In this document: piece by piece, positions 9,928-62,096 of the stretch
How the letters are laid out: every line of letters starts with the position of its first letter
How positions within the stretch are numbered: position 1 is the first letter of the stretch
Assembly (NCBI GenBank): GCA_030549335.1
Contig: CM060188.1
Coordinates: 2,294,001-2,358,000, forward strand
Direction of reading: 5' to 3'
Length of the DNA stretch: 64,000 nt
Source: Pontederia crassipes
Lineage: Eukaryota > Streptophyta > Magnoliopsida > Commelinales > Pontederiaceae
Position numbers and translations under genes: made by a program
The notes under the pieces: generated by a model
The model's input: only the letters and a program-made list of their open reading frames with translations
Database searches by the model: none
Told to the model about the DNA's origin: nothing

Positions 9928-12900
9928 ATGGAAGACCCCGCCGTCGTTCCCGCCGCCGCCGCCTCAACTGCGGCCATAGACTCGGCAAAGGCCACCGTGG
10001 AACTTAACGAGGACGACGAGCACGACTGCAAGGAGGTGGTCCTCCTCCGCTACTTCCTCCAAGAGTGGGAGCTCGTCCAGTCCATCCTCGATCGCATTGT
10101 CGCCAATGGCGGCCTCTCCGATCCCTCTGACGTTCGCAAGATCCGCTCCATCGTAAGCTTTCAAGCACACTCTCAAATCAAATCCTCATTTCTAAACCCT
10201 TACCGTCGAACCAAAAATAGTTTTGATCTCAGTTTTAATGCAGAGGAAAACTAGATATCATATTTGATATAGATACTGAAGTGCATAGTTCCTCGATCAA
10301 GTTGTTTATAAATATGCTTTTTATTTAATGAATTCAGATGGACAAGTACCAAGAACAAGGCCAGCTGCTAGAACCCTACCTGGAACACATAATATCTCCG
10401 CTAATGTCGATCGTACGGTCTAAAGCTGTGGAGCTTGATATGCCCTCTGGCGAAGCTATTGAAATCATCAAGCCTCTTTGCATTATTATCTATACACTCG
10501 TAACAGTATGCGGTTACAAGAACGTCGTTAAGTTCTTCCCGCATCAGGTCTCAGATCTCGAGCTCGCGGTTGTCCTACTCGAAAATTGTCACCTGACCGG
10601 CTCAGCCACATCATTGCGACAGGAGAGTACTGGTGAGATGGAGACCAAGTGCGTAGTGCTGCTATGGCTTTATATCCTTGTTTTGATTCCTTTCGATATC
10701 TCGACCGTGGACTCCAGCATTTCAAATAGTAGCCATTTGGGATCAGAGCCTCCACCTTTGGTCATGAGGATATTGAATATTTCAAAGGATTATCTTTCTA
10801 GTGCTGGTCCTATGCGTAGGATGTCTGGTTTATTACTTGCACGGCTTTTAACTCGCCCAGACATGTCAACCGCTTTTGACAGGTATGCAGAGCAGAACAA
10901 GCATGCAACTGTTATACGTAAACAATTTTGATCAATATTAAATCACTTTATGCAGAACTAGGGATTTCCTTGGGTGAGAGTAATGTTGCACAACCCTCTG
11001 ATATCAATTGTATCGTTGTTATGTTTCTACTTTCTTAATGAAGTTAAATCGTCCTCCTTAACATAAAGAAATCAAAGCTCGCAACTTGTCTTTTATCAGA
11101 TGAATCTAATGTAGTCTGACATGTGGCCATCATTCATATGATACATGAGGAAGGATAAAGGAATACTACAATGAGAATTTGGACAAGTTTCAAGATGTTC
11201 TTTTATGTTCAATTGGAGATAACTCTAAAACCCAGATTCCTTTAAAAAAAGAGGCAGAGATTCAGATTAAGAAATGTGAGATTTTTTTTTTTTGAGAAGT
11301 AGATGTGAGAATTTAGTACTTCCTGCTTTCCACTTTGATGTGTTGTTTGCTAACTTATAAGCATTATTCCAGGAAAATTTATTCCTAAGTGCAAAAACTT
11401 AGTCAATATATGTGTTTTATAACATTTTTATGCTTGCTGAGTCTCTAAATTCTTACTCCTTACTGCCCCCTAGGTTTAATGACTGGGCACACGAAGTTCT
11501 GTTATCTGTAACAGAAGATGTTGTCGATCACTTTAGGTTATTGGGGGTGGTGGAAGCTCTTTCATCAATATTCAAGGTTTGGTCTTACATCTTCCTTGCT
11601 GAATACCATGATGTGTGTAATAAGTTTTTTCATATCATGAGTTCTTGGGTCAATTTATTTTGCATCTTTTTTTTTTAAAATTCTGGCTTTGGACATAGAA
11701 ATAGGCTCAAAATACATGATCATTGCAAGTTTCTGAGCTGGCCAAGATTGGTAGTTGCTAACAACAACAACAACAACAAAGCCTTATCCCACTAGGTGGG
11801 GTCGGCTATATGGATCATACGACGCCATTCCGCTCTATTCGTTGATCCATGTTCATGCGATTCGACATGGTTTTACCCTGGTTGTCGGGGCCTAACACAA
11901 CCCTCCTCCTTTATCTGGGCTTGGGACCGGCTATAAAACATAGGCGAAGTTGCTAACGGCACTAATATTTGTACAAATTGATGTACATATTCTTAGGCAT
12001 ATAAGCATATTCATGGTTTCCGAACACTTATGTTTTGATGTGGTGGTCAATTGAATTAAACCCAGTCTATGGTGAGTTTGGGCCTGCTCTAAATTTATAT
12101 GTGCCCTGGGCTAGTTTGGATCAAGAATTCAATATTGACTGATTGTCACGTATCAGCTGGCACGTAAAATTTGGCACAAAGGAGGATTTCAGTTACATTC
12201 GAGAGTTTCAGTTACATTTCAGTTCCATTGGAGCTTTCCAGGGTGTACCAAGTAACCTTGCCATAGAAGCATCAACTTGTGGGCCCCTTTTAGACATTGG
12301 CATGTCATGTTATAATACTTGGCTGGCCAAGAATCGGAATAGTTTATGCCATACAACTTGAAAACTTGATTTTGATTATGGTGTATTTTGTATGTGATTC
12401 GGAATTGATTTATTTCTGTATCATAAGATAGATGTCCTATTTTGAGGGATTAATGCAAACTCCTAGTTGGTTTGTAATTTCTATAATTTGTAAAGGGAGT
12501 GCCTATATGAACTTCCTAGGGTCCGAACAACGATCACTCTTTTGTTTTCATCTAAAAAAATTCTGTATTGCCTTAAATTCTCGGTGCATAATTTCTTTTA
12601 TACAGAAATCCTGACACAACATAGTCGGCAATTAATCTGTGGGAGTTGATATGTTGTTAATACTTTTTTGTTATTCATTTTCATCTACTATGATGATGTC
12701 CTATGGCCTGATATTCCCTATTTGTGGCATCCGATATCTACTCAGGCATTCGGTTTTCTTTTCATTCTTTTCTTTTTCGGGACTGTGCATCTCAAACATT
12801 TACTTGCATCTAAGTTCTGTCTCTCTTTTGATTAATATCCATATTATTTCCTCAAATAATTGATGATTCAGGTTGGGGCCAGAAATGTTCTTCTTAGTGT

Positions 12901-15900
12901 GATTTCTGCCATTTGGAGTGATATCTCCCTTTTAATGAAGTCTAACGCTGCACTAAGGAGTCCTTTGCTTCGTAAACTTCTAGTCAAATTGTCACAGCGT
13001 GTTGGCCTTACTTGTTTGCCTCATAGGTCTTCGTCATGGCGATACCTGGTTTGTCTCTTAAACCCTTCCATGAATTATCTTTTTTTTCTTTGGATTCTTG
13101 TCTCCTTTTGCTTTTTGTACCAGCTATATCGTCGTTTGATAAAAAAGTTGCTGGCATTCTGAATTACCATGTTTTGTGTTAATATTTCAAATTTTTTTTA
13201 AATATAGCTTAATAGGTTTTAAAGTACTAGGGTAAGCGAGCGGGTTCTTAAAGGTCAACAAAAGCATGCCTTTCTAAAAATGATATGGTGTGGGGTGTGG
13301 TGGGGATGGGGCTAAGAGTTATGAAAAAAACGGCAATCATTGATGTGTTTTGGAATGAATTAGTGGTTTAGAAGGAAGGGTAAACGATGCTTGCTATTGT
13401 TATGGTGAAAGAATGACGAAAACAATCTAAGATGGCAGTAGTTAATATCAGATAGCAGTCTTCAAGGTAACTCCAGGAGTTGAAGTTGGAGGACCAACAG
13501 GTGAATGGAGAACTGAAGATCAGTTCTTCAGTAATTGGTCGAAAGTTTCAATTTTCCTGTTTTGTGAATAATATGTGATGAGTGAATAAGTTCTTTTTTC
13601 CTACCTAGTATTGACACGGTTAGTTGTCTTGCTTTTTCATGCAGGGGAAAAGTACTTTGTTGGGAGTAAACCTGTTACCAAAAGACTCTGGCAATTCTTC
13701 TACTTGCAGTTATGACCAACATAGAGATGATCACGATGGTTCACAGACAACATGCTTATTTGAAGAAGAGGATATGGAAGTTCCAGAAATGATAGAAGAG
13801 ATACTTGAACTGCTATTGTCTGGCTTGCGTGATTCGGTAGCAGGATTTAATTAATATGGCCTTATTTTATTTACTTATTTTGTTGGTCAATTGTTGTATA
13901 ACCTTCTCCTAAAAAAAATGTTGCATAACCTTATAACATTTATAAAGCAAACCCCATGCTCTTATCAATACCCAACTAGTAGGGTAGACGGAGGTTGCTT
14001 AATTATGTAACAGTCCCACTGTTTAACAAAGGTGTTCTTTTAGAAGGATCAACAGAAACTGTTGCTCCGAGACTCACCCTCCTTTTAACTATTGTTATAT
14101 GCAAATCACAGAGTCGTCATTTCCTTTCCTATCTAATTGAACCCTAAGTCTGCTTTTAGCTACTCTTTTCTTATGCTGGTTAAACAATATAATATGTTAA
14201 GATTAAATAACTGAACATTTTGCTTCCACTTCAGGATATGCATTAACTCCAAAGTGAATTGTTAAATCCCAAAGGAGACATTTTTTTTCATAAATCACTA
14301 TTTTGGGAAATACGGTGTATGGAGTTAATCGACTGTTGAACAGTGTGAAGATAGAATAAAAAGGACTAAGAGTTTACCTTATGATGCTAAAATTTTGGTG
14401 CTGTTATGTTTATATTGGTTATCGTGTGATTTTTTATGCATGTCATATTGATAATTACTTTTCATGACTTATATCTGTTCATTTGTATAGAAAGAAGAAG
14501 AAACATGAATTTTCAGACTTAGAGTACCTCTTTAACATGTGAGGTACTGTTGATGTTCAAACACACCTACTTTTGTAAAATCTTCAAAAACATGAAACCA
14601 GATTATTTAGAGCTGTCTTTTGATGGTCATCATTTCATATTTTTACAACAACAACAACAACAAAGCCTTATCCCACTAGGTGGGGTCGGCTACATGGATC
14701 ATACGACGCCATTTAAGATTCGACAAGATTTTACGCTGGCTGTCGAGGCCTAACACAACCCTTCTCCTTTTGATGGTCATCATTTCATATTTTTAACCTC
14801 AAATTTTATTTTGGCTTTTTCCCTACCTCTTTTCATTTTAATGGTTTAATAGCTTAACAGTGCAGGATACAGTTGTACGATGGTCAGCTGCAAAAGGTGT
14901 TGGCCGTGTTACTGCACGTTTAACAATATCCCTTTCGGAAGATGTTCTCTCGTCAATATTGGAGTTGTTTTTGTTAGGCGAGGTGTGCAATCCATCTTGC
15001 TCCTGTTTACCAATTAATATGTTTGGCAGTTGCCACTTAACAGTTTTCAACATGATCTAATTTGTGCAATACTCACAAAAATTATCTTATCTGTGGAAGT
15101 GTTTACAATTTGGTTTCCAGGGAGATGGTTCATGGCATGGAGGCTGCTTAGCTTTGGCAGAGCTGGCTCGTAGAGGCTTGCTACTTCCAGCTAGCCTTCC
15201 CAAAGTAGTTCCAGTGATCATAAAGGTAAGAGGAGATTCAGGAGAAATGATGAGGAAAAGTAAAAGAAAACACTCCTGAGACTTGGTTTAATGTTTGATA
15301 TCATGCTTTTGTGTTTGATAAAGGAACTGTTGGATACACTTAATTGAATTTGAATCTCAATTGAAAGGAGCTAAATATTAATGCCCAAAAATGCAGTTTT
15401 TTTTTTATTGTAGCTTATAATAGAAGATAAAACAATATTTTTATGGCACACACAGAAGTTATTGTTGGATATGGTTAGGAGTGTGTAAATCCCTCGAGGT
15501 TTACACATGTGGGGACATTACTGAATCAAGAACTTAAAAGATTTTTTGGTTTGGACCTTTTATGAATAAAGATATTGCTTCCTCAAAACAAATATATTGG
15601 CTACCAATAGATTCTTATCCAATGGTGGCTTACATGTGTAAATTTATCAAGGGCTCTACATCTTCCTTTTACTCACTTTTTAGGGGAAAAAAGGTGAGAG
15701 CCATGTGTACTCATCCAGCTGTATTCATGCATATAAAAGTTACATCAAGAGGTTACAATATTGCCCAACCAACAGAAATCTGGCTATTCAGATAATATTT
15801 TCAACATACCCAATGTAATCCTTTAAAGATGCAACCATTGCATTTACATGAAATAAACTGCAGAAGATCTAAAAGCATAGCTAGCTGTCATCTTGACATA

Positions 15901-62008: not shown

Positions 62009-62010
62009 TA

Positions 62011-62096
62011 AACAACAACAACAACAAAGCCTTATCCCACTAGTTGGGTCGGCTACATGGATCATACGACGCCATTCCGCTCTATTAGTAACCAAC
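62011..62096 (-). mobile_element. Au-type SINE copy 7, 5'-truncated in the hairpin loop
   Basis: Only the 3' ~80 bp remain, from the tail to GCCATTCCGCTCTATT, followed by about 13 unrelated bases. The 11-bp direct repeat ATATTAAACAA (about 62005-62015 and 62102-62112) marks the insertion. Confidence 0.85.

Follow-up and report, generated by a model that had tools for sequence, protein, structure and literature searches.

In a 64-kb window of Pontederia crassipes DNA (contig CM060188.1; by the window we mean the whole 64,000-nucleotide stretch analysed), five of the seven copies of a short interspersed nuclear element (SINE) are rearranged, and their breakpoints gather at one spot, the apical loop of a hairpin predicted in the element RNA. 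The affected copies are 2, 4, 5, 6 and 7, and the loop is unaffected only in copies 1 and 3. This pattern had been pointed out in a first-pass annotation of the window, and it is borne out by a profile search with nhmmer and by alignment of the copies. We regard the observation as sound and the clustering as suggestive, and we consider the mechanism put forward in that annotation, in which the hairpin stalls the reverse transcriptase, to be unlikely as stated.

A plant SINE with a (TTG)n tail, present in seven copies

A profile built from four of the copies and run without filters recovers exactly seven copies in the window, as eight pieces above threshold with copy 5 contributing two; the next nhmmer matches (E 1.7 and 5.7) provide no eighth copy in the window. 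All seven lie on the minus strand, apart from the inverted block of copy 5, and the sequence AACAACAAC at the low coordinate is the (TTG)n 3′ end of the element, read on the minus strand. The four copies that have both ends are 176-190 nt long. Positions within the element are given below as columns of the SINE alignment; breakpoints were placed by hand, and all statistics on these seven copies are post hoc. The copies and the two intact loops are as follows.

11762..11951, minus strand: SINE copy 1 (nhmmer), loop intact; 10-bp duplication AGTTGCTAAC, P 0.0017
14646..14770, minus strand: SINE copy 2, columns 97-122 deleted with the junction at 14713/14714; 5′ truncation near column 40; 26-bp duplication
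19337..19522, minus strand: SINE copy 3, loop intact; no duplication detected
19999..20174, minus strand: SINE copy 4, 11-nt loop deletion with the junction at 20058-20060; 17-bp duplication
38275..38350, minus strand: SINE copy 5, 3′ block in the normal orientation of the insertion, starting at column 116
38351..38450, plus strand: SINE copy 5, inverted 5′ block, flip at 38350/38351; 16-bp duplication pair 38259-38274 / 38448-38463 around both blocks
57262..57444, minus strand: SINE copy 6, 8-nt loop deletion with the junction at 57329/57330; 16-bp duplication
62011..62086, minus strand: SINE copy 7, 5′-truncated at column 113; duplication 62001-62015 / 62098-62112 with one mismatch; 11 filler bases 62087-62097
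11823..11838, minus strand: apical loop of copy 1, columns 114-129 (fold and alignment)
19394..19409, minus strand: apical loop of copy 3, columns 114-129 (fold and alignment)

These sequences have what is expected of a plant SINE, namely short dispersed copies with a common 3′ tail and target-site duplications. The (TTG)n tail is present with minor variation in all seven, and duplications of 10 to 26 bp flank six of them (P <= 0.0017 each, against 3000 random flank pairs); at copy 3 none was detectable in the flank comparison. Because these duplications are separate, the six copies that carry them represent six separate insertions.

A predicted hairpin with a 16-nt apical loop

One common stem appears in the RNA folds of all four copies that were folded (1, 3, 4 and 6). 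It is predicted to comprise 14 bp with one bulged A, arranged as ten pairs, the bulge and then four more pairs (ACGA with UCGU), and to close an apical loop that in the intact copies spans 16 nt (columns 114-129), within which the fold places two further pairs. The eight inner pairs of the stem have probabilities of 0.96-1.0, except for values of 0.79 and 0.91 at the outer end in copy 1. The hairpin had originally been described as a perfect 10-bp structure, which holds for some of the copies: copies 4 and 6 alone have perfect 10-bp arms in an uninterrupted copy, in copy 5 the arms are distributed over its two halves, and the loop-intact copies lack them, with a C-A mismatch in copy 1 and a U-G wobble in copy 3. 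Dinucleotide shuffling of copy 6 produced perfect 10-bp arms within 40 nt in 17 of 4000 cases.

Breakpoints of the rearranged copies converge on the loop

The 3′ blocks of the rearranged copies start at columns 113 (copy 7), 116 (copy 5), 123 (copy 2), 124 (copy 6) and 128 (copy 4), which places the start inside the apical loop, to within one base, in 5/5 cases. The last column of the 5′ block is 115 in copy 4, 115 or 116 in copy 6 (one base is ambiguous) and 96 in copy 2, and the 5′ block of copy 5 ends at about 111, plus the stretch paired by the primer (to 115). Columns 113-128 thus hold 8 of the 11 ends, or 7 of 11 if the 5′ block of copy 5 ended at 111, and none of the 11 lies at the 3′ base of the stem in columns 140-150. 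The complete 3′ arm is present in all five 3′ blocks, from which it follows that the enzyme had already passed the 3′ arm.

The individual events described in the first-pass annotation hold up when the copies are aligned. The deletions in copies 4 and 6 are indeed confined to the loop, measuring 11 nt and 8 nt. The copy 2 deletion takes part of the loop together with the right arm as seen in the window, which is the 5′ arm of the RNA, and this copy has its 5′ truncation in addition. Copy 7, which was said to stop in the loop, does so as a 5′ truncation since the element is on the minus strand, and the orientation of copy 5 does change in the loop, within one duplication pair.

Ends within a single copy are not independent, and so the clustering test uses only the five 3′-block starts and asks for the chance of a range of <=15 columns anywhere in the element, for lengths of 170, 150 and 130. 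If all five starts are independent, P is 3.3e-4, 5.4e-4 and 9.5e-4, respectively. The values become 2.8e-3, 4.0e-3 and 5.9e-3 with four independent starts (for example, if copies 4 and 6 represent one event), 0.024, 0.030 and 0.039 with three, and 0.17, 0.20 and 0.22 with two. At seven copies, this suggestive cluster of breakpoints in the loop is a lead and not a proof.

Copies 5 and 7 were rearranged at integration

Copy 5 is a twin-priming 5′ inversion, in that an inverted 5′ block and a direct 3′ block share one duplication pair and the primer is complementary to the element. A single 16-bp duplication pair, AACAAATAAGTGATCA, encloses both blocks. Read in the sense of the element, the upstream flank ends with TATTTGTT and is followed directly by GATCC of the inverted copy, the element on that strand being TATTCGTTGATCC. 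The flank end TATTTGTT pairs with the loop-side sequence AACGAATA through seven Watson-Crick pairs and one G-T pair (7.5 of 8) in the exact register for priming. Pairing as good in that register is found for 19 of the 127,985 8-mers of the window (both strands), and among random ends (n=4000) an equally good match was obtained for 0.17% in the loop region and for 1.7% anywhere in the element. Since AACGAATA belongs partly to the top of the stem and partly to the loop, the top pairs would need to open for priming. The outermost bases of the element are lost, and the inner joint shows little or no loss. A nested insertion and a later inversion are both ruled out for this copy, because the two blocks lie between a single pair of duplications and the element has lost its first bases.

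Copy 7, flanked by a duplication of its own, is an ordinary 5′ truncation. By their structure, then, copies 5 and 7 are integration-time events, and to this extent the attribution of the rearrangements to reverse transcription stands; it does not extend to copies 2, 4 and 6, where an inherited or DNA-level origin is possible. The first five of the 11 filler bases of copy 7 (CGTTG in the sense of the element) equal the start of the inverted loop copy, a match too short to count, and the filler is possibly the product of aborted twin priming.

How the breakpoints might have arisen

We tentatively favor, at somewhat less than even confidence, an explanation in which all five rearranged copies result from faulty target-primed reverse transcription of one SINE RNA, the apical loop being where the template is interrupted or where the enzyme readily leaves it. 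The reverse transcriptase would copy the tail and the 3′ arm and would then lose its template in the loop. A stop at that point would give copy 7, resumption on the 5′ half would give copies 4 and 6 if it occurred just across the loop and copy 2 if it occurred further upstream, and priming by the second DNA end on the 5′ half would give copy 5. The unpaired loop would be an accessible site for second-end priming and for breakage of the RNA, and the stem would keep the 5′ half beside the loop, within reach of the enzyme. We prefer interruption or departure in the loop because the arm had already been copied and the loop is what all five copies share.

A specific form of interruption is suggested by the way in which column 115, where the 5′ blocks of copies 4 and 6 end, meets column 116, where the 3′ block of copy 5 starts. 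This boundary is a UpA step (ACGAAU/AGAGC), and UpA steps in loops are labile. Cleavage of the SINE RNA at this step is on the whole unlikely to be the cause, but if it occurred, the 14-bp stem might tether the two halves as a split template, and the enzyme would stop at the gap or jump across it, or the second DNA end would prime at the 3′ terminus of the upstream half. In this way the hairpin would allow even a broken RNA to be inserted.

Several observations weigh against loss of the template in the loop as a common cause. Three ends lie outside the loop, namely the landing point of copy 2 (column 96), its 5′ end (near column 40) and the outer end of copy 5 (near column 13), and at the junction of copy 4 a base must have been added or altered. 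Folded over its whole length, copy 3 shows no unusual stability (z -1.04, with 29 of 200 shuffles at least as good), and the sample comprises only seven copies with hand-set breakpoints and post hoc statistics. The bodies, furthermore, are split by columns 82 and 95 (and 13 where present) into two types, one formed by copies 1 and 3 and the other by copies 2, 4, 5 and 6, such that all four rearranged copies that keep a body are of one type and both intact copies are of the other. Because every body of the second type is rearranged, inheritance is a real rival: the short-loop form may be shared by descent, and copies 2, 4 and 6 could either have inherited their deletions or have acquired them later.

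There is accordingly some chance, although we judge it the less likely course of events, that the causes are mixed, with copies 5 and 7 being ordinary integration accidents that ended in the loop by chance and copies 4 and 6, perhaps also copy 2, deriving from source elements with short loops. The single body type fits this explanation, small loop deletions presumably need not block the mobility of a SINE, and the cluster P rises to the values given above for three or only two independent events. Yet the short loops of copies 4 and 6 are unlike, one lacking 11 nt and carrying an added or altered base, the other lacking 8 nt. Over columns 41-96 a single base separates copy 5 from copy 4, and likewise from copy 6, whereas copies 4 and 6 are two bases apart, and copy 5 nevertheless keeps most of the loop, including the bases AGAGCAGAATGG that are wholly or partly absent from copies 4 and 6. 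A body this close to both, with the loop bases retained, indicates that short loops are not fixed in a common lineage. Instability of the DNA after insertion, in which the inverted repeat is extruded as a hairpin, cut in the loop and rejoined with small losses, is also consistent with the loop-confined deletions in copies 4 and 6, which have 0-1 nt of microhomology, and with the loss of part of the loop and one arm in copy 2. The hairpin does fold at -10.5 to -10.9 kcal/mol in a script intended for DNA parameters, whose loading is unconfirmed and whose values differ from the RNA energies. Such instability can account neither for copy 5, since an inversion at a later date would have left the element's first bases beyond the inverted segment, nor for copy 7, in which the filler directly abuts the duplication; we find it quite unlikely as the general cause.

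The stalling model of the first-pass annotation, in which the hairpin halts the reverse transcriptase and so causes jumps, stops and strand switching, can draw on the stem predicted in every copy folded and on two events that clearly date to integration. We nevertheless consider it improbable and find it unsupported by the breakpoints: the enzyme reads the RNA starting from its 3′ end and, on stalling, is expected to leave ends at the 3′ base of the stem, near column 144, where there are none, and the 3′ arm had already been copied in all five cases. Classical hairpin skipping, moreover, deletes both arms, and no such deletion exists among the seven copies (copy 2 loses one arm). The loop might instead be where two modules meet, the body of a SINE and a tail derived from a LINE (long interspersed nuclear element), with the copies arising from separate joinings of body and tail. 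This would suit the 5′ blocks of copies 4 and 6, which end at 115 while the 3′-block starts vary, and copy 7, which is tail only; according to the excerpted text of PMC3747384, LINEs of the RTE clade in plants terminate in (TTG)n or (TTGATG)n. We hold this to be a decidedly improbable origin of the pattern, given that copies 1 and 3 have one full loop in common and that the ten open reading frames (ORFs) scanned in the window include no nameable LINE protein (there is one RVT_1 match, beside an integrase domain); the LINE origin of the loop is, moreover, our presumption.

Setting of the copies in the window

The window is plant DNA, with Pfam matches for seven of the ten ORFs scanned, including a DUF641 and GIL1/IRKI C-terminal domain, an auxin-responsive protein and tubulin-cofactor-D domains. 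Pieces of a tubulin-folding cofactor D gene lie on the plus strand at 10332-23800 (Pfam matches at 10332-10928 and 21802-23800); SINE copies 1-4 fall between these matches and so are probably in introns of that gene, antisense to it. A minus-strand ORF of 464 codons at 62571-63965, with the DUF641 and GIL1/IRKI C-terminal domains, is about 460 bases from the copy 7 duplication. RVT_1 and Integrase_H2C2 ORFs about 500 bases apart at 4467-6183 are probably a decayed long terminal repeat retrotransposon. Two direct repeats at 35258-35642 (56 and 47 nt, 95% and 89% alike, spaced 281 and 285 nt) suggest local tandem duplication. Judged by eye, several SINE copies have a run of T that finishes a few bases short of the duplication, on its upstream side; the Tn-TA mark of Bov-B (PMC13295347) is a loose parallel, and the cases are too few to use.

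Relation to known elements and mechanisms

The Au label, and with it the putative likeness of this element to an Au body, is our assumption; a stretch near columns 86-96 resembling the B box of RNA polymerase III promoters was noted by eye only. The element resembles the Au SINEs and the Angio-domain superfamily in being short, in having duplications at six of seven copies and in its 3′ region TGTAGCCGACCC, which also occurs in simple sequence repeat (SSR) primers of peanut, Dendrobium and Kalmia, as far as the passages containing them go. A 37-nt Angio-domain is described at the 3′ end of many angiosperm SINEs (review PMC9033089, citing Seibt 2020, in excerpt). Unlike this element, Au-like SINEs terminate in poly(T) or a short stretch of T, according to the available part of PMC3747384, and none of the seven (TTG)n tails here has that form. 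Because a (TTG)n end is reported there for plant RTE-clade LINEs, the tail points to an RTE-type LINE as a possible helper. Six 12- to 16-mers of the SINE matched text in 16 papers, of which 7 contain TGTAGCCGACCC, 5 of them dealing with plants and 2 not; the passages with this string, from the SSR primer papers, do not contain the full element. Two 16-mers of the SINE had no match in open-licence literature text, and exact tail or body patterns had none in viral and prokaryotic contig collections, where little is to be expected.

Copy 5 shares with the twin-priming 5′ inversions of LINE-1 an inverted 5′ block within one pair of duplications, an inner joint at which few or no bases are lost and primer complementarity, and differs in being a plant SINE. 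In a survey of human and chimpanzee insertions, 5′-inverted Alu elements numbered 1/5554 versus 639/2068 for 5′-inverted L1 (PMC2912911, excerpt). Chimeras of human LINE-1 offer a second comparison. The tRNA parts in them are typically half-length, with breakpoints like known RNase cleavage sites, and are mostly antisense, and possible twin priming has been proposed (PMC13174262, in part). With these tRNA halves, and with a loop-truncated 5S RNA in such chimeras, our copies share breakpoints of the RNA at cleavage sites or in loops, an antisense orientation and a proposed origin by twin priming; the chimeras, however, join a second RNA to LINE-1, whereas here both parts would derive from one SINE RNA. 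The excerpted passages of a wheat Au SINE paper (PMC5787218) say nothing on loop breakpoints, and the paper has no match for hairpin or deletion; none of the papers among the matches listed from the open-licence literature deals with SINE breakpoints located in a hairpin loop.

If breakpoints pile up in the loop genome-wide, SINE copies would be a record of where the RNA broke or the enzyme left it, in living plant cells. SINE inversions, which are very rare for Alu in the survey excerpt cited above (PMC2912911), would then gain a sequence-level cause, and such a genome-wide pattern would also show that the reverse transcriptase gets through the stem unhindered and that it is the loop where it fails.

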